A stretch of 46,171 bases of DNA, from contig JADLDY010000051.1 in NCBI GenBank assembly GCA_020846435.1, positions 1 to 46,171 of the forward strand, written 5' to 3'. The position numbers were made by a program, and so were the translations under genes. The notes beneath the pieces were generated by a model. The model saw nothing but the letters and a program-made list of their open reading frames with translations, was not told where the DNA came from and made no database searches. Source of the DNA: Deltaproteobacteria bacterium. GTDB lineage: Bacteria; Desulfobacterota; GWC2-55-46. This document shows, one piece after another, positions 4,469 through 45,889 of the stretch. How positions within the stretch are numbered: the stretch's first letter is position 1; every line of letters begins with the position of its first letter.

Positions 4469-4909
4469 TTGAAGGTTTTTACCAGCGCTATCAGGATCAG
4501 ATCGAGTGCCAAGACCGAAGAGGTCAATATCACTAACCAGGTGGAAGCTGTAATACTTGAAAGCGGCATCCATGAGGGGCAGGCGCTGGTATTTACCGGC
4601 CATACGACCGCGAGCTTACACCTGAACAACGCTGACAAGGACCTCGAAGAGGACTTCCACAACTTCCTCAAGCAGATAGTCCCGAACAAACCCGACTACA
4701 AGCACAACAAGGGCGAGTACGGCAGGAACGCCGACGCTCACCTCAAGAGCCTTCTTGTCGGCAACAGCGTGACCATACCGGTCACCAAGGGCAGGCTCGC
4801 TCTCGGCCAGTGGCAGGCCATCTACTTCTCGGAGTTCGACGGACCGAGGAGCCGCCTCATATCCATCAAGGTCTTCGGCGTCCCTGAGCAGAGCGTCAAG
4901 GGCCGTTGA
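4469..4909 (+). CDS. yjbQ: YjbQ family protein (secondary thiamine-phosphate synthase)
   Basis: This 146-residue protein matches the UPF0047/YjbQ family: VFTGHTTASLHLNN near residues 42-55, YGRNADAHLKSLLVG near 89-103, and a C-terminal GQWQAIYFSEFDGPR. The conserved histidines are in place. E. coli YjbQ has weak thiamine-phosphate synthase activity; the main physiological role remains uncertain. The start is TTG, preceded by an AAAAGGGGGC ribosome site. The stop overlaps the TTG start of rsmD (TTGA), so the two are probably translationally coupled. A TATAAT box at about 4413 may belong to their promoter. Confidence 0.85.
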   Translation: MKVFTSAIRIRSSAKTEEVNITNQVEAVILESGIHEGQALVFTGHTTASLHLNNADKDLEEDFHNFLKQIVPNKPDYKHNKGEYGRNADAHLKSLLVGNSVTIPVTKGRLALGQWQAIYFSEFDGPRSRLISIKVFGVPEQSVKGR

Positions 4910-5472
4910 GGATAGTCTCAGGCGCTTTCAAGGGCAGGAGGCTCTCGACCCCCAAAGGGATGGACATAAGGCCTACCTCCGACAAGGTCAGGCAGGCCAT
5001 ATTCAATATCCTCCCGATGGAGTTCCCGTTTAAAAGGGCTCTCGACCTTTTCGCCGGCACAGGCGCGATGGGGTTGGAAGCCCTGAGCCGCGGCGCGCTT
5101 CAAGCGACCTTCGTCGACAGCGGCGCCGAGGCCATATCGCTGATCAAAAAAAACATGGAGTCCTGCGGCGTCGAGGCAAGGGTATACAGGAGCGACGCGC
5201 AGGCCTCTTTGAAACAGTTCAGCCGAAAAGGCGAAAAGTTCGACCTCATAATAATAGACCCGCCGTACAGCACGGCCCTTTTGAGGGAAGCTCTCGAGGC
5301 GATCGACTCCGACGGCCTCCTTTCCCCGGAAGGGGTCATAGTGGCTGAGACCACTAAGAGGAACGCATTTCAAGCTGATTTGAAAACCCTTGAGGTCTAT
5401 GACGAGAGGCGCTACGGGGATACGGTAGTCTATTTTCTCAGATGCAAGGCTGCAACAACTTTTGAAAATTAG
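4906..5472 (+). CDS. rsmD: 16S rRNA (guanine-966-N2)-methyltransferase RsmD
   Basis: This 188-residue Rossmann methyltransferase modifies 16S rRNA on the small subunit. It begins with the typical MRIVSGAFKGRRL and IRPTSDKVRQAIFNIL blocks. The SAM site is LDLFAGTGAMGLEALSRGA (about residues 46-64) and the catalytic DPPY motif is near residue 117. The TTG start overlaps the yjbQ stop. The extreme C terminus (TFEN and the TAG at 5470-5472) is encoded by the terminal inverted repeat of an R2 element, so insertion has probably replaced the original end of the protein. coaD follows, as often seen in bacteria. Confidence 0.9.
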   Translation: MRIVSGAFKGRRLSTPKGMDIRPTSDKVRQAIFNILPMEFPFKRALDLFAGTGAMGLEALSRGALQATFVDSGAEAISLIKKNMESCGVEARVYRSDAQASLKQFSRKGEKFDLIIIDPPYSTALLREALEAIDSDGLLSPEGVIVAETTKRNAFQADLKTLEVYDERRYGDTVVYFLRCKAATTFEN

Positions 5473-5588
5473 ATATTTTTTCTGAGATCAAGGAAGGGCG
5501 GAAATAAAAAGCGCAGCATATATGAGAATATGTGAGCATTTTTATTTACGCCCTGACACAGAGGTCGGGAAAAAGAGCAATTTTCCAG
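5461..5588 (-). mobile_element. R2 element, copy 1 (MITE-like)
   Basis: This stretch of about 128 bases, read on the minus strand, aligns with 33679-33808 with only about 17 mismatches over some 123 positions counted by eye. Its ends are inverted (TTGAAAATTAG at the left and GCAATTTTCC at the right) and match the sharper terminal repeats of copy 2. An imperfect internal hairpin lies at about 5507-5544 (AAAAAGCGCAGC against GTGAGCATTTTT). It supplies the rsmD stop codon and ends just before the coaD ribosome site. No transposase is encoded. Confidence 0.75.
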
Positions 5589-5595
5589 GAGAAAG

Positions 5596-6096
5596 ATGTC
5601 TAAGCATATCGGTGTATATCCCGGCACCTTCGACCCTATAACAAAAGGGCACCTCGACGTTATCGAGCGCGGCATCAAGCTCTTCGACGTCCTCGTGGTG
5701 GCGGTCGCCGAGGGGCTCACAAAGACCCCGCTCTTCGATGTGAATGAGCGGCTCGAGATGATACGGGCCGAGGTGAAAAAGTACAAGAGCGTCAGGGTCG
5801 AGAGCTTCGACTGCCTGCTCATGGATTACATGAGAAAGAAAAAGGCCAAGATAGTTCTGCGCGGCCTTCGCGTTGTCTCAGACTTCGAGTACGAGTTCCA
5901 GATGGCCCTCATAAACAGGAAGCTCGACTCTGACATTGAGACGGTCTTCATGATGACCTCAGACAACTACGCTCCGGTGAGCTCGCGTTTCATAAAAGAG
6001 ATCGCCAGATTAGGCGGGGATGTAAGCGCCTTCGTGACTCCGGGTGTCTCCCGCCGCCTCGACAAAAAGTACAAGCAGCTTGGAAAAGGACAGTAA
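5596..6096 (+). CDS. coaD: Phosphopantetheine adenylyltransferase
   Basis: This 166-residue enzyme transfers AMP from ATP to 4'-phosphopantetheine, the penultimate step of coenzyme A synthesis. It shows the nucleotidyltransferase signature YPGTFDPITKGHLDVI (residues about 8-23, with the T/H-x-G-H histidine at 19), the R-G-L-R block (VLRGLRVVSDFEYEFQ), and the late SSRFIKEIARLGGDV motif. The length is normal for the family. An AGGAGAAAG ribosome site precedes the ATG directly after the R2 element. The aminotransferase gene follows 17 bases later, probably in the same transcript. Confidence 0.95.
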   Translation: MSKHIGVYPGTFDPITKGHLDVIERGIKLFDVLVVAVAEGLTKTPLFDVNERLEMIRAEVKKYKSVRVESFDCLLMDYMRKKKAKIVLRGLRVVSDFEYEFQMALINRKLDSDIETVFMMTSDNYAPVSSRFIKEIARLGGDVSAFVTPGVSRRLDKKYKQLGKGQ

Positions 6097-6113: not shown

Positions 6114-7310
6114 ATGATTAAGCTTTCAGACAGGCTCGCGGGACTCGAGGAATCGGTAACGCTCGCCATTACGGCAAAGGCCAGGGCGATGAAGGCCGAA
6201 GGCCGCGATGTAATAGGCTTCGGCGCGGGAGAGCCTGACTTCGATACGCCGGAGAACATCAAAGAGGCGGGCATAAAGGCCATAAGGGACGGCCACACCA
6301 AGTACACGGCCGTCGGCGGCATAAACGAGCTCAAGGACGCCATAATAGGCAAGTTCAACAAGGAGAACTCCCTTGCCTATACGCGGGACGAGATACTCGT
6401 CTCATGCGGCGGCAAGCATTCCATCTTCAACCTCTTTCAGGCGATATTGAATCCGGGCGACGAGGTCATAATACCCGCGCCGTACTGGGTTTCATACCCG
6501 GTCATGGTCGCCCTCGGCGGAGGCACCCCGAAGGTCGTGCACACGAAGGAGTCCGACGGCTTCAGGATGTCGCCGGAGGCGTTCAGGGCGGCTATCAATC
6601 CCAGGACAAAGGCCGTAGTCATCAACAGCCCCTCCAACCCCACTGGAGCTGCCTACACTGAAAAAGAGCTCGTAAAAATCGCTGAGATAGCCCTTGAAAA
6701 CGGCCTCCTCATAATATCCGACGAGATATACGAGAGGCTCTCCTACGACGGTTTCAAGGTGACCTCGATCGCCTCGCTTTCAGAGGAGGCGAAAAAGTCC
6801 ACGGTAGTGTTGAACGGCGTCTCCAAGACCTATTCGATGACAGGCTGGAGGATAGGCTACGCGGCAGGCCCGAAGAACATCATAAAGGCCATGACCAACA
6901 TCCAGAGCCAGTCGACTTCGAACCCGACTTCCATCAGCCAGTGGGCGGCGGTCGAGGCGATAAGCGGACCGCAGACCGAGATAGACAAGATGGTCGCCGA
7001 GTTCGTCAAGAGGCGCGATTCTATAGTCGCGGGCCTCAACGCCATCGACGGGATAAGCTGCATAAAGCCGCAGGGCGCGTTCTATGTCTTCCCTAATGTC
7101 TCGAAACTCTTCGGCAGGAAGTACAAGGGCTCTCCCATAAAGGGCTCAGTTGACCTCGCGACTTACCTTATTGACGAAGCCGGGATAGCGGTTGTCCCGG
7201 GCGAGCCGTTCGGCGACGACAACTTCATAAGGCTCTCCTACGCTACTTCCATGGACCATATAGTAAAGGGCGTGAAGAGGATAGGCGAAGCTGTAAAAGA
7301 GCTGAAGTGA
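6114..7310 (+). CDS. aspC: Class I pyridoxal-phosphate aminotransferase (aspartate aminotransferase type)
   Basis: This 398-residue fold-type I enzyme has the hallmarks of the Ig subgroup of aspartate aminotransferases: FGAGEPDFDTPENIKEA at the N terminus, SPSNPTGA near residue 171, SDEIYERL, and the PLP lysine in SKTYSMTGWRIGY (about residue 238). The conserved arginine near the end (FIRLSYATS) would bind the substrate carboxylate. It likely transfers the amino group between aspartate and 2-oxoglutarate; related family members also act on prephenate. A strong hairpin terminator follows about 70 bases downstream. Confidence 0.9.
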   Translation: MIKLSDRLAGLEESVTLAITAKARAMKAEGRDVIGFGAGEPDFDTPENIKEAGIKAIRDGHTKYTAVGGINELKDAIIGKFNKENSLAYTRDEILVSCGGKHSIFNLFQAILNPGDEVIIPAPYWVSYPVMVALGGGTPKVVHTKESDGFRMSPEAFRAAINPRTKAVVINSPSNPTGAAYTEKELVKIAEIALENGLLIISDEIYERLSYDGFKVTSIASLSEEAKKSTVVLNGVSKTYSMTGWRIGYAAGPKNIIKAMTNIQSQSTSNPTSISQWAAVEAISGPQTEIDKMVAEFVKRRDSIVAGLNAIDGISCIKPQGAFYVFPNVSKLFGRKYKGSPIKGSVDLATYLIDEAGIAVVPGEPFGDDNFIRLSYATSMDHIVKGVKRIGEAVKELK

Positions 7311-7380
7311 AAATTGTTATTTTTCACCCTTCCTCGGCCTCGGAAAAAATATTTAATTTTCAGAGACACCCTAAGAATAA

Positions 7381-13173: not shown

Positions 13174-13736
13174 GAGAGTCCGGCAGGCAGAGGGTCGTCT
13201 TCCTTGACAGGGACGGCACCATAAACGAGGATGTCGAATATCTTTCAAACCCATCCGGCCTCGTTATCATAGAGGGCGCCGGAAAAGCGATAAGGCTCCT
13301 GAACGAAAGGGGCATAAAGGTCATAGTCGTCACAAACCAGTCCGGTGTGGGAAGAGGCTACTTTAAAGATTCTGACGTTGAGGCAGTGAACGCGAGGCTC
13401 AAAGAGCTACTTGCGAGGGACGGCGCGTCGATCGACGCCAGTTATCACTGCCCCCATCGACCTGACGAAGGGTGCGAGTGCAGGAAGCCTGGGACAGCTT
13501 TGGCGAAGAGAGCGGCAAAAGAGCACGGGGCTGATTTGAGCCGCGCTTACGTAGTGGGCGACAAATCCTCTGATATCGGCCTTGCCAGAAACCTTTTCGC
13601 GAAGGGCGTGCTCGTCCTCACAGGCAAAGGGGCTAAAGAGGCCGAGGGACTCGTCGAGCCGCCGGACTTTATCGCTCAAGACCTCCTCTCGGCGGTCGAA
13701 TGGATACTCGAAGACATGGAACGGACCGGCGGTTGA
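13170..13736 (+). CDS. gmhB: D-glycero-D-manno-heptose-1,7-bisphosphate 7-phosphatase
   Basis: This 188-residue HAD phosphatase makes heptose-1-phosphate for ADP-heptose synthesis. It shows the catalytic DRDGTIN (residues about 11-17), the VVTNQSGVGRG motif, and the zinc loop CPHRPDEGCECRKP (Cys-x-His ... Cys-x-Cys), which separates GmhB from histidinol phosphatases. The late GDKSSDIG motif completes the site. The GTG start overlaps the waaF stop (GTGA), and its own stop overlaps the next start (TTGA), so the three genes are tightly coupled. gmhA and the nucleotidyltransferase domain of HldE are not in the window. Confidence 0.93.
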   Translation: MRESGRQRVVFLDRDGTINEDVEYLSNPSGLVIIEGAGKAIRLLNERGIKVIVVTNQSGVGRGYFKDSDVEAVNARLKELLARDGASIDASYHCPHRPDEGCECRKPGTALAKRAAKEHGADLSRAYVVGDKSSDIGLARNLFAKGVLVLTGKGAKEAEGLVEPPDFIAQDLLSAVEWILEDMERTGG

Positions 13737-14743
13737 AGATACTCATCGTCAAGCTCTCGTCCATAGGCGACGTCGTGCACACGCTTCCGGCGCTTGAATC
13801 CCTCAGCCGGGGATTCAAAAGCGGCGGCGTGAAAGTAAAGATAGACTGGCTCGTCGAAGAGGCCGCTTCAAGCGTATTGAAAGGCCACCCTCTGATAAAC
13901 GAGCTGATAGTAGTCAGGCGCGGCTGGGGCAAGAACCTCAGGGCCAATTTGAAGACAGCCGGAGAGCTAAAGGACAGGCAATACGACCTTGTGCTCGACT
14001 TCCAGGGGCTACTGAAGAGCGCCATCTGGGTCTGGCTTTCAAAGGGCAAGAGAAGGATCGGTTTTTCGAACGCGAGGGAGGGGAGCCATTTCGCGTATAA
14101 CGAAAAGCTCCCCGCCTATGATGTCGAGCAGCACGCTGTCGACAGGTACCTTTCATTATCGAGGAGCGTCGGAGGCGCGTCCGGCGAGGCGGTCTTTGAG
14201 ATAGACGCCGCGAAGGCGTCCGAATCGATAAAAAAGAAGCTCAGGCAAAAAGGCGTCGCCAGCCCTTTTTTCGTCATGGTCACGAGGGGCAGGTGGGCCA
14301 CCAAGCTCTGGCGCGACGACAGGTTCATAGAGGTTGCCAGAAGGCTCGTCAGGGATAAGAAGCTCTCCTGCGTGCTCGTTGGAAGCCCGTCAGACAAAGT
14401 CGAGCTCGACAGGATCGCCGGGTCGATAGGAGAAGGCGCGTTCAACATGGCTGGGGAGACTGACCTCAAAGAGCTCTTCGCGCTTTTCAGGCTTGGCAAG
14501 TTCGCCGTGACGGTAGACTCGGGCCCCATGCACATTGCCGCGGCCTCAGGCGCCAGGACGGTCGCCCTCTTCGGCCCGACCGCCCCATGGCGCACCGGCC
14601 CTTACGGGAAAGGGCACGTCATCGTGAGGAAGGGGCTCCAGTGCAGTCCGTGTTTCAAAAAGGCCTGCGCTTCCCCCAGATGCATGGAAGAGATTACAGT
14701 GGAAGATGTCATGGAGGCGGTAGATAAAATAGCAGGCTGCTGA
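13733..14743 (+). CDS. waaC: LPS heptosyltransferase I (GT9)
   Basis: This 336-residue GT9 protein starts MKILIVKLSSIGDVVHTLPALESL, the diagnostic WaaC beginning, and ends with the nucleotide-sugar site (TVDSGPMHIAAASGARTVALFGPTAPWRTGPYG). It would add the first heptose to Kdo. TTG 13733 is chosen over an ATG at 13700 because it coincides with the family start and overlaps the gmhB stop. The last residues (AGC) and the stop codon are encoded by the terminal repeat of an R1 element, so the original C terminus may have been altered slightly. Confidence 0.92.
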   Translation: MKILIVKLSSIGDVVHTLPALESLSRGFKSGGVKVKIDWLVEEAASSVLKGHPLINELIVVRRGWGKNLRANLKTAGELKDRQYDLVLDFQGLLKSAIWVWLSKGKRRIGFSNAREGSHFAYNEKLPAYDVEQHAVDRYLSLSRSVGGASGEAVFEIDAAKASESIKKKLRQKGVASPFFVMVTRGRWATKLWRDDRFIEVARRLVRDKKLSCVLVGSPSDKVELDRIAGSIGEGAFNMAGETDLKELFALFRLGKFAVTVDSGPMHIAAASGARTVALFGPTAPWRTGPYGKGHVIVRKGLQCSPCFKKACASPRCMEEITVEDVMEAVDKIAGC

Positions 14744-14988
14744 AAACCCATAGCGAGCGAACCCCCGCAGTTTTATGCGGGGTCAAGCGAGCGAATAGAA
14801 AATCGATACTTCCTTAGGTTTCGAAGCTCCCTGCGGCTTGCCGAGGTAAGCTTCAAAAAGTCCATCTGCGTCGTTGTCTTCATCGCTCGTCATTGCGGCG
14901 TACACAAAAAGTACGCCTCTTTCCTCACTCCTCGACGCCTTGCAGCTGGAGCTTTTTGAGCAGTCTGGACGATGTTATTTTTTTCAGC
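14734..14988 (+). mobile_element. R1 element, copy A (MITE-like, structured)
   Basis: About 255 bases match 26765-27012 along nearly their whole length. The left end AGGCTGCTGAAAAC is identical to copy B; the right end is decayed (TTTTTTTCAGCA). Three hairpins are visible: CCCCGCA/TGCGGGG (14763-14782), GAAGCT/AGCTTC (about 14824-14855) and GGCGTAC/GTACGCC (14897-14917). It carries the waaC stop codon and fills the gap before the PAP2 gene. No ORF is encoded. Confidence 0.8.
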
Positions 14989-18090: not shown

Positions 18091-19052
18091 AGTCAGCCCT
18101 CTCGACCCTCGTAAAGATACTCATAAGCGGCGCGATACTGTATTTTCTCATGCGCAACATGGACGTCAAGGCCGTCTGGCAGACCTTCTCTTCTGTCGAG
18201 CCGCTCGCGGTCGTGTTCGTCGCCCTCCTCATAGTCTTCAACCAGTCGGTCTCGAGTTACAGGTGGTCGGTCATACTTAAAAAAGATCTGGATGTCTCCT
18301 ATCTGCGCCTCCTTTCCATATACTTCGTCGGCATGTTCTTCAACAACTTCTTGCCGACCATGGTCGGCGGCGACATCGTGAAGGGCTACTACCTCTACAA
18401 GTACTCGCGCAAGGGAGATGTCGCGATCGCCTCGATATTCATGGACAGGTACTCGGGGTTCGCCGCTCTCATGGTGATCACAGCCCTGACGCTCATCCCG
18501 GGCTACGCGCTCATCAAGGGCACGCCCCTTCCCGGTTTTTTCGCGCTGCTCATCGGCGGCTTCATCGTCATGAGCCTCGTCATCTGGGTCGGCCCGCTCC
18601 ATGCCGGGGCCATGAGGCTGGCGAACAAGGTCCACTTTTACGGCATCAACCAGAAGATAGACACCCTCTACAAGGTCTTGATGAGCTACAAGCGCCACGG
18701 CGACATACTCGTCAAGGCGTTCGTCTGCTCGCTCATCGTCCAGTGCGGCGTCATGATAGGCTATTATGTGCTCGGCAGGGGGCTTGGCATGGACATACCC
18801 CTGGCCTATTATTTCCTGTTCATACCTCTTACGACGGTCATAGCGATGCTGCCGATATCCCTTTCAGGGCTCGGGATAAGAGAAGGCGCTTTCGTATTCC
18901 TATTCACGATGGCCGGGGCGACCAAGGAACAGGCCCTGACGCTCTCCCTCCTGTGGTTCGCGACCGGCGTCATCGTCAGCCTCATCGGCGGAGTAGAGTA
19001 CGTGAGGATGGGCGGAAGGAAGGCCGTCGAGGACGGCATGTCCAGGGAGTAG
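18087..19052 (+). CDS. Flippase-like membrane protein (LPG synthase TM-domain family, UPF0104/AglD type)
   Basis: This 321-residue protein has about seven to eight membrane helices and the family motifs R-W near SSYRWSVIL, FFNNFLPTMVGGDIVKGYYLYKY and ISLSGLGIREGAFVFLF. It is related to the membrane part of lysylphosphatidylglycerol synthase (MprF) but has no soluble aminoacyl-transfer domain. Because it follows a polyprenyl-phosphate glycosyltransferase with an ATGA overlap, it may flip or help handle the polyprenyl-linked sugar. That role is inference from position. Confidence 0.85.
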   Translation: MKSALSTLVKILISGAILYFLMRNMDVKAVWQTFSSVEPLAVVFVALLIVFNQSVSSYRWSVILKKDLDVSYLRLLSIYFVGMFFNNFLPTMVGGDIVKGYYLYKYSRKGDVAIASIFMDRYSGFAALMVITALTLIPGYALIKGTPLPGFFALLIGGFIVMSLVIWVGPLHAGAMRLANKVHFYGINQKIDTLYKVLMSYKRHGDILVKAFVCSLIVQCGVMIGYYVLGRGLGMDIPLAYYFLFIPLTTVIAMLPISLSGLGIREGAFVFLFTMAGATKEQALTLSLLWFATGVIVSLIGGVEYVRMGGRKAVEDGMSRE

Positions 19053-19105
19053 CCTTAAAAATTTTCCGTGATATAATCCACCTTATCAGAGATACAGGAG
19101 GTCTT

Positions 19106-26746: not shown

Positions 26747-26764
26747 AGTTTTTTCGCTGGACAG

Positions 26765-27012
26765 AGGCTGCTGAAAACTCACAGCGAGCGTATTCCCCGC
26801 AGCTTTGCTGCGGGGTCAAGCGAACGAATAGAAAACGATACTTCCTTAGGTTTCGAAGCTCCCTGCGGCTTGCCGATGGGAGCTTCAAAAAGTCCCATCT
26901 GCGTTGTTGTCTTCATCGCTCGTAATTGCGGCGTACAAAAAAGTACGCCTCATTCCTCGCTCTTCGACGCCTAGCATCTGGAACTTTTTGAGCAGCCTGA
27001 GTTTTCCAGCAG
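26765..27012 (+). mobile_element. R1 element, copy B (best preserved)
   Basis: This copy of about 248 bases has recognisable terminal inverted repeats: CTGCTGAAAACTCA on the left and TGAGTTTTCCAGCAG on the right, complementary apart from one bulged base. Internal hairpins are CCCCGCAGC/GCTGCGGGG, GAAGCTCCC/GGGAGCTTC and GGCGTAC/GTACGCC. The first two stems differ from those of copy A partly by changes that keep pairing. It sits between the binding-protein and permease genes of the minus-strand peptide transporter and covers most of the 308-base gap at 26747-27054. No ORF is encoded. Confidence 0.85.
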
Positions 27013-32840: not shown

Positions 32841-33677
32841 ATGCTCACTAAAAAAACAATAGGATTCCTCGGCGCAGGCAACCTCGCCGAGGCCCTTATC
32901 AAGGGGCTCATCTCCTCGAGGAGCGTCGCTCCCGGCCATATTGTCGCGGCTGACAGGATGAGCGAGCGGCTCATCCACATGGCGGAAGTCCATGAGGTAA
33001 AGGTCTTCAGCCGCAACTTCGAGGCGGTGAGGAGCTCGGATATAATATTCCTCACGGTCAAGCCGCAGGACGCCCTTGGCGTGCTCGCCGAGATCGCCCC
33101 GGAAGCAGTACAGGGCCAGCTCCTAATCTCGGTGGCAGCCGGCATAACAACGGCCAGCATCATGGAAGCCTTGAAAGACGCGGGCTTGAAGCACTTCATG
33201 CCGATAGTGAGGGCCATGCCGAACACGCCGGCGACAGTCCGCGAGGCGGCGACCGCCATCTGCGCGGGCCCGGGAGCCGGCACCGGACATCTCGAGCTCG
33301 CGGCCGCCCTCTTCTCGACCGTCGGGGCCGTGACCGTCATAGAGGACGAATCGCTCATGGACGCTGTCACCGGCTTGAGCGGGTCAGGGCCGGCCTATGT
33401 ATTTCTCTTCATGGAGGCTTTGATAGAGGCCGGGGTGAAGCTCGGGCTGGCCTCTGATACGGCTAAGGCCCTCGCCATGCAGACGGTTCTTGGCGCGGCC
33501 AAATACGCGATTGACAGCCGCAAGGACCTTGGTGAGCTCAGGCGCATGGTGACTTCCCCTGGAGGCACGACCATGGCCGGCCTTAAAAAGCTGGACGAAG
33601 GCGGCTTCTGTGAGATAATAGAAAAGGCGGTCGAGGCCGCCACCAAAAGGGCGAAAGAGCTGTCAGCGGGAAAATAG
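32841..33677 (+). CDS. proC: Pyrroline-5-carboxylate reductase
   Basis: This 278-residue enzyme performs the last step of proline synthesis. It shows the NAD(P) site IGFLGAGNLAEALIKGL (residues about 6-22), MPNTPATVREAATAI near 130, and the C-terminal signature LSGSGPAYVFLFMEALIEAGVKLG ... SPGGTTMAGLKKL. The length is typical. It follows yggS by 18 bases. An R2 element begins directly after its stop codon. Confidence 0.95.
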   Translation: MLTKKTIGFLGAGNLAEALIKGLISSRSVAPGHIVAADRMSERLIHMAEVHEVKVFSRNFEAVRSSDIIFLTVKPQDALGVLAEIAPEAVQGQLLISVAAGITTASIMEALKDAGLKHFMPIVRAMPNTPATVREAATAICAGPGAGTGHLELAAALFSTVGAVTVIEDESLMDAVTGLSGSGPAYVFLFMEALIEAGVKLGLASDTAKALAMQTVLGAAKYAIDSRKDLGELRRMVTSPGGTTMAGLKKLDEGGFCEIIEKAVEAATKRAKELSAGK

Positions 33678-33678
33678 G

Positions 33679-33808
33679 TTCTGAAAATCGCTCTTTTTCC
33701 TGATATCTGTTTCAGGGCGTAAATAAAAATGCTCACATATTGTCATATATGCCGCGCTTTTTAGCTCCAAACTTCCTTGACCTCGGAAAAAACAGCTGAT
33801 TTTCAGAA
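33679..33808 (+). mobile_element. R2 element, copy 2 (better preserved)
   Basis: This 130-base element is bounded by perfect 11-base terminal inverted repeats, TTCTGAAAATC (33679-33689) and GATTTTCAGAA (33798-33808). It is the inverted partner of 5461-5588. The centre (AATAAAAATGCTCACATATT) is fully conserved between copies and forms one arm of an imperfect hairpin with the following CATATATG...GCGCTTTTT. It starts two bases after the proC stop codon. No ORF is encoded. Confidence 0.82.
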
Positions 33809-45412: not shown

Positions 45413-45763
45413 ATGTCTATGGTGACGATAGTTCTGCAGGACGCGCCCTACGGCAACGAGAAGGTCTGGAACGCCTTGCGCCTCTCTCAGGCGCTCATCT
45501 CCGTGGGCTCGAAGGTGAGGATATTCCTCTACGGCGACAGCGTGGTCGCCGCTAAGCGCGGGCAAAACCCGCCGAAGGGCTACTATAACGTCGGCGAGAT
45601 GCTCTCGGCCCTCATGGAAAAGGGTGTTGAGGTGAAGTCCTGCCTGACCTGCACTTCGGCCAGGGGGCTCGTGCAGGAGGACTTTATAGAGGGCGCCCTC
45701 ATCGGCAAGACGATAGACCTCGCCAGGTGGGTGCATGAGGGCGAAAAGGTCATGGTATTCTGA
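45413..45763 (+). CDS. DsrE-family sulfur-relay-like protein
   Basis: This 116-residue alpha/beta protein resembles the DsrE/YchN fold: VTIVLQDAPYGNEKVWNALRLSQALISVG at the N terminus, IFLYGDSVVAAKRGQ in the middle, and a SCLTCTSARGL segment near residue 80 with C-x-x-C, where DsrE proteins carry their persulfide-accepting cysteine. A role in sulfur transfer or redox signalling is plausible; no dsr or tus genes accompany it. AAAGGAGG precedes the ATG. The stop codon borders R1 copy C. Confidence 0.82.
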   Translation: MSMVTIVLQDAPYGNEKVWNALRLSQALISVGSKVRIFLYGDSVVAAKRGQNPPKGYYNVGEMLSALMEKGVEVKSCLTCTSARGLVQEDFIEGALIGKTIDLARWVHEGEKVMVF

Positions 45764-45889
45764 CAGGCAGCCATGAAAGCCCCATCTGCTTTGTCGTCAG
45801 CGTCGCTTGTAATTGAGGCGTACAGAAAAAGTACGCCTCAATTCCTGCTCCTCGACTCCTCGCACCTGGAACTTTTTGAGCGGCCTGTC
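45762..45889 (+). mobile_element. R1 element, copy C (shortened)
   Basis: About 128 bases match the right half of R1 copies A and B (from CCCATCTGC to CTTTTTGAGC). Its ends pair as GACAGGC (45762-45768) and GCCTGTC (45883-45889). The internal hairpin is the strongest of the family: 13-base perfect arms AATTGAGGCGTAC (45811-45823) and GTACGCCTCAATT (45831-45843). It overlaps the stop codon of the DsrE-like gene and probably terminates or caps its transcript. Confidence 0.75.

Follow-up and report, generated by a model that had tools for sequence, protein, structure and literature searches.

Palindromic elements at gene ends of the window

The window, a stretch of 46,171 bp that makes up one contig of the 2.40 Mb draft genome of a groundwater deltaproteobacterium (henceforth G000), holds copies of two palindromic elements, R1 and R2, most of them at the ends of genes. 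By RsmD, the named genomes nearest to G000 come from groundwater metagenomes and carry the label Deltaproteobacteria. R2 copy 1 (5460..5588, plus strand; ~128 bp, palindromic, CM match of 150.4 bits), which occurs in some relatives and is missing from others, is located between rsmD (4906..5472, plus strand) and coaD (5596..6096, plus strand), both defined by gene call and comparison, for coaD with a relative without R2. The R2 end (TTTTGAAAATTAG) contains the rsmD stop codon (TAG, 5470-5472), and the TGA (14741-14743) of a waaC-like heptosyltransferase gene (13733..14743, plus strand) lies inside the end (CAGGCTGCTGA) of R1 copy A (14733..14967, plus strand), a composite of 235 bp with a core (14853-14967) and an extra hairpin arm and with ATAG (14729-14732) directly 5' of it. 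An earlier note on this DNA had placed both stops within the element ends, and their coordinates are confirmed. As the note also reported, R2 copy 2 (33679..33808, minus strand; CM match of 128.2 bits) follows the proC gene (32841..33677, plus strand), starting 1-2 bases past the TAG (33675-33677). Its claim that the TGA of a DsrE-like gene (45413..45763, plus strand) overlaps R1 copy C (45764..45887, plus strand; 124 bp, CM match of 117.1 bits) has to be corrected: the stop (45761-45763) abuts the element without overlap. Copy C is flanked on each side by TCTGA, a candidate target duplication. R1 copy B (26764..26999, plus strand), a composite of 236 bp, is 17 bp from a gene start and 55 bp from the nearest stop, and a decayed R2 remnant (7305..7365, minus strand; CM match of 33.2 bits) carries on its edge the TGA (7308-7310, d=-6) of an aminotransferase gene (6114-7310). 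An Rfam search of the window matched only tRNAs. Another dispersed-looking repeat, TCGTCGCTTCGCTCCTCGCAATGACGG, is present twice (2275-2309 and 2511-2545).

R1 is a dispersed, non-coding element of 122-160 bp with ~80 copies in G000 and >100 in G008, a complete 2.75 Mb relative from a different genus that served as an independent replicate. With at most 150 candidates scored per genome, R1 was found in 28 of 40 family relatives at E<=1e-4, several of which had at least 92 matches. The G000 form is an imperfect palindrome of 122-124 bp with the ends CAGGCTGCT[C/G]AAAAAG..CTTTTTGAGCAGCCTG, and composite forms of 206-236 bp, including window copies A and B, also occur in this genome. The true element in G008 is longer, AATAAAAACGGAGTTTTTCAGCAAGCTG following the palindrome, so that R1 has the outer terminal inverted repeats CAGGCTGCTGAAAAA / TTTTTCAGCARSCTG and the shape of a near-complete palindrome plus a third arm. 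In G000, the outer arms of a copy vary together (11.03 of 13 matches versus 10.09, a level reached in 0 of 5000 shuffles); in G008, whose copies are fresher, the arms agree weakly. A terminator-like pattern is present within R1 copy A, with two such patterns found against 0.5 in shuffles. R2 is a palindrome of 120-130 bp with terminal inverted repeats CTCTAAAAATTAG / CTAATTTTTAGAG, represented in G000 by ~22 full copies plus decayed ones.

Several arrangements were seen along the way. Three R1 copies stand head to tail in tandem at C69:42959-43343 of G000, with a spacing of ~128 bp, and a tandem pair of R2 occupies C18:19756-20014. At C26:9764-9884, one R1 copy directly adjoins, at distance 0, the stops of both genes of a convergent pair. 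In the relative G002 (C41, ~18936-19086; L320), a composite R1 in opposite orientation lies just past the terminator of a gene whose G000 counterpart has R1 at its stop. The arms of single R1 copies in G000 share 38 matched departures from the consensus, a number reached in 0 of 5000 shuffles, as if pairing had been kept or restored.

Stop-codon association and the YTAR target

The earlier note had proposed a shared insertion preference at gene termini, to be checked against random intergenic placement, and an association with stop codons is borne out, strongly, across the genome. We fetched ~595 kb around the R1 and R2 copies of G000, called genes with a trained, home-made codon model and measured the distance from each element end to the neighbouring gene end. 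On the stop side, 20 R1 copies are at exactly 0, 14 at 1-4 and five at -11, the stop in the last group being the TGA of CAGGCTGCTGA. Unlike the stop side, the start side showed no peak at 0 in either G000 or G008. When each copy was re-placed at random inside its own intergenic gap, omitting copies with a stop inside the element (nine R1, nine R2), R1 began on the first base after a stop in 17 of 57 cases versus 1.98 expected (P<=5e-5) and within 0-4 bases in 29 versus 5.9 expected (n=57); for R2, three of 13 copies were at 0 versus 0.22 expected. From G008, 89 R1 copies were fetched with flanks, 74 of them full copies with a clear right end, and 25 of these 74 abut a stop exactly, or 28 when three with a gene model ending inside the element are counted. 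Reverse-oriented copies in G008 meet stops with their opposite end (8/25). R1 copies are not fully independent, and abutting sites common to both genomes number two among the compared orthologues.

The flanks of the G008 copies reveal what the element inserts into. A YTAR-like 4-mer is present at both outer flanks of R1, and the left and right 4-mers are identical in 15 of 74 copies versus 4.6 when shuffled (0 of 5000 shuffles as high), the identical pairs including the rare non-consensus TTAT/TTAT and TTGG/TTGG. Thus, R1 has a 4-bp target-site duplication with the palindromic consensus YTAR (pyrimidine-T-A-purine), as does IS5, which duplicates PyTAPu (PMC5493358, PMC10359306). Of the 31 copies bordered on the left by a gene start, 15 are still preceded by TAA or TAG, and YTAR is also found at deep intergenic sites. 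Since TAA or TAG precedes R1 on gene-start sides too, the target is the tetranucleotide and not the stop codon. Several abutting sites carry non-YTAR 4-mers, for example CTGA, GTAG and ATAA; the G000 copies are older, and YTAR has been lost from many of their flanks.

How much of the association does this target explain? Using a YTAR matrix trained on G008 copies away from stops, with training and test thus in the same genome, the expected number of exact abutments rose from 2.5 under uniform placement to 9.1-11.0, compared with 25-28 seen. YTAR accounts for roughly four-fold of the eleven-fold excess and leaves ~2.5-fold over, a remainder that persists when the 15 or 40 bp upstream of starts are dropped. 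YTAR weighting falls short of the observed stops, so something more is needed, such as selection, DNA structure or an extended target. The remainder perhaps reflects selection against insertions at other intergenic positions, instability of the duplex at gene ends (as proposed for IS5; PMC5493358), a longer motif or a matrix blurred by old copies.

The origin of the stop codons

The earlier note had further proposed that element ends supply the stop codons and suggested comparing the C-termini of RsmD and WaaC with relatives lacking the element. The end residues do differ. RsmD of G000 ends in ..TFEN*, its last two codons and stop (GAA AAT TAG) being part of the R2 end, and the protein of L243, whose insertion is in common with G000, ends in ..VSEN*, whereas that of L244, without R2, ends in ..GEPGNV* and its gene overlaps the coaD start. 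WaaC of G000 ends in ..KIAGC*, of which AGC* spans the junction with R1; in the same-genus relative G001, whose waaC is without R1, it ends in ..KILAERNS* and the ATG of the next gene overlaps the stop. A G008 gene has the same AGC* tail, compared with ..LSAVTSGR* in its G000 orthologue. By these comparisons, rsmD and waaC did gain new stops and last residues from the elements.

The proposal does not extend to the abutting copies. In 14 pairs of reciprocal best orthologues of G000 and G008, one member alone has an abutting element. The C-terminal lengths differ by no more than ~1 residue in 13 of these pairs, with a mean difference of 0.4 in one direction and 1.2 in the other, versus 1.6 in pairs without elements. 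Judged from orthologues that end alike, the stop at abutting copies is the gene's own, and stops supplied by elements are a minority.

Empty sites in relatives, namely the waaC site in G001, the rsmD site in L244 and C29:35681 in G003, bear on the note's other suggestion, that terminators are the target. At C29:35681 of G000 the element separates the stop from a hairpin, which is directly 3' of the stop in G003 and G002 and still intact in G000. Since the rsmD and waaC insertions split overlapping genes of operons, at places where one would not expect a terminator, and the terminator at C29:35681 was left intact, terminator targeting is not supported by the cases examined. The C29:35681 site of G001 (C1, ~35990; L305/L311) reads GAATAGCAATAAAAAAGCCC, possibly the footprint of a lost R1.

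We consider the following account as a whole to be probable. A DDE-type transposase acting in trans would mobilise R1 and duplicate a 4-bp YTAR target. A TAA or TAG stop that follows a pyrimidine is a YTAR site; CTGA would be a weaker one. Landing at a stop would keep the coding sequence and its stop whole on the left and so survive selection, whereas landing on a YTAR within a gene would not; as a result, the element would begin on the base directly after the stop. Occasionally, an insertion may land a few codons inside the tail of a gene, where an in-frame stop in the element end (CAGGCTGCTGA in R1, TRAAAATTAG in R2) would create a new C-terminus. R2, whose ends are approximate, would behave similarly. 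A duplicated target that contains a stop codon, so that insertion regenerates the stop, is a simple and testable reason for apparent stop-seeking. Every element that targets YTAR (or a TA-type site) would have a harmless landing place at each suitable gene end, and such sites would let high-copy families accumulate in compact genomes. As at rsmD and waaC, such insertions would also remodel C-termini and separate overlapping genes of operons.

This account was weighed against three other explanations of the position of the elements. Chance, in that short intergenic gaps bring any element near a stop, has practically no probability left: gaps are indeed short in these genomes, but abutment far exceeds what re-placement in the same gaps gives in G000 and uniform placement in G008. 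Direct targeting of stop codons or gene ends, beyond any sequence preference and guided for example by transcriptional or translational termination or by terminator hairpins, would be in line with the excess that remains after YTAR weighting, including when the 15-40 bp before starts are excluded, and with the convergent gene pairs of G000, where six of 14 copies are at a stop versus 1.4 under uniform placement. We nevertheless regard it as unlikely, given YTAR at gene-start sides and at deep intergenic sites, insertions at gene overlaps within operons and, at C29:35681, an insertion upstream of an intact terminator and not within it; moreover, the 4-mer model that leaves the excess is crude and blurred by old copies. 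Slightly less likely still is retention of elements behind stops for the sake of their hairpin, which would serve the upstream gene at its 3' end as a terminator or mRNA stabiliser. The palindromes are strong (folding z of -4.5 to -7.9) and the G000 arms co-vary as described above, but the arms agree weakly in the fresher copies of G008, the element is often between genes of an operon, and the same genes are mostly without it in the other genome (14 one-sided abutting pairs versus two shared).

Orientation and mobilisation of R1

The orientation of R1 in G008 follows the replication fork, whose direction we took from the sign of the GC skew around 1.3 Mb. Before this point 49 copies are on the plus strand and nine on the minus strand, and after it 10 are plus and 42 minus (L181-L220); 66 of the full copies are oriented with the fork and eight against it (n=74). 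Only 63% of genes (263/417) are co-oriented with the fork in G008, and R1 follows the fork against both neighbouring genes in 15 cases, compared with one in which it follows both genes against the fork. This low gene co-orientation, together with the ratio of 15 to one, argues that gene direction does not explain R1 orientation. Some transposons are known to insert in an orientation that depends on the fork (PMC5493358). It is conceivable, if rather doubtful, that insertion is coupled both to the fork and to properties that the DNA has at gene ends, such that stops would be hit beyond YTAR and orientation would report fork direction. If fork-following orientation is general, such elements would be markers of replication direction.

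A duplicated palindromic target is a habit of DDE transposases, from which we infer a DDE enzyme for R1. No fitting transposase emerged among the IS1182/IS5-type DUF772 (PF05598), DDE_Tnp_1 (PF01609) and IS701-type DDE_5 (PF13546) families, which are absent or nearly so; PF01609 occurs in only four of the 40 relatives and in neither G000 nor G008. The DNA searched contained no autonomous long copy with R1 ends, only separate R1 ends paired around ordinary genes, and no R1 match was found in a plasmid collection. A literature search for the end sequences returned the strings only in C. elegans, goat and pneumococcal-repeat contexts, with no obvious match. Short, non-coding and present in high copy number, with terminal inverted repeats, a target duplication and empty sites, R1 has the features of a MITE; no parent IS with matching ends was found among the transposase families and DNA searched.

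Among the closest parallels are IS5 (IS5 family, IS5 subgroup) and its derived MITEs, which share with R1 the 4-bp YTAR duplication, terminal inverted repeats and short, non-coding, high-copy derivatives. Unlike IS5, R1 forms an almost complete palindrome and has a third arm, and G000 has no DDE_Tnp_1 gene; to our knowledge, the R1 ends CAGGCTGCTGAAAAA are not those of IS5. IS711 of Brucella also has a YTAR target, with a reported preference for palindromic repeats (PMC2266754), but duplicates TA only and encodes a transposase itself. Correia/NEMIS, RUP, ERIC and related repeats are described, in the parts of PMC2229807 available to us, as palindromic intergenic repeats of 100-150 bp with terminal inverted repeats, some of which supply stops. 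They are similar to R1 as small, palindromic, MITE-like repeats but differ in that several of them use a TA target; those parts make no mention of exact seating on stop codons.

REP elements and their RAYT transposases resemble the R1 system in being palindromic and 3' of genes, and RAYT is present in this family. R1 could be REP-like, with the Y1 (RAYT) transposase of these genomes as its mobiliser, and RAYT-like genes are indeed present, one with an R1 remnant 90 bp upstream; old R1 copies show no obvious duplication, and orientation with the fork is expected of single-strand transposases. We hold this to be very improbable, since the RAYT genes are flanked not by R1 but by their own GTAG-hairpin repeats (GTAGGGTGCGC..GCGCACC), R1 is without the GTAG-hairpin layout, and its duplicated palindromic target fits staggered double-strand cutting. 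With a single R1 remnant near genes that carry their own repeats, RAYT/REP was rejected as the mobiliser of R1. The RAYT-like Y1 genes lie within GTAGGGTGSGC..GCSCACC hairpin repeats (L225, L226, L228-L230, L232 and L234), which constitute a REP family of this lineage.
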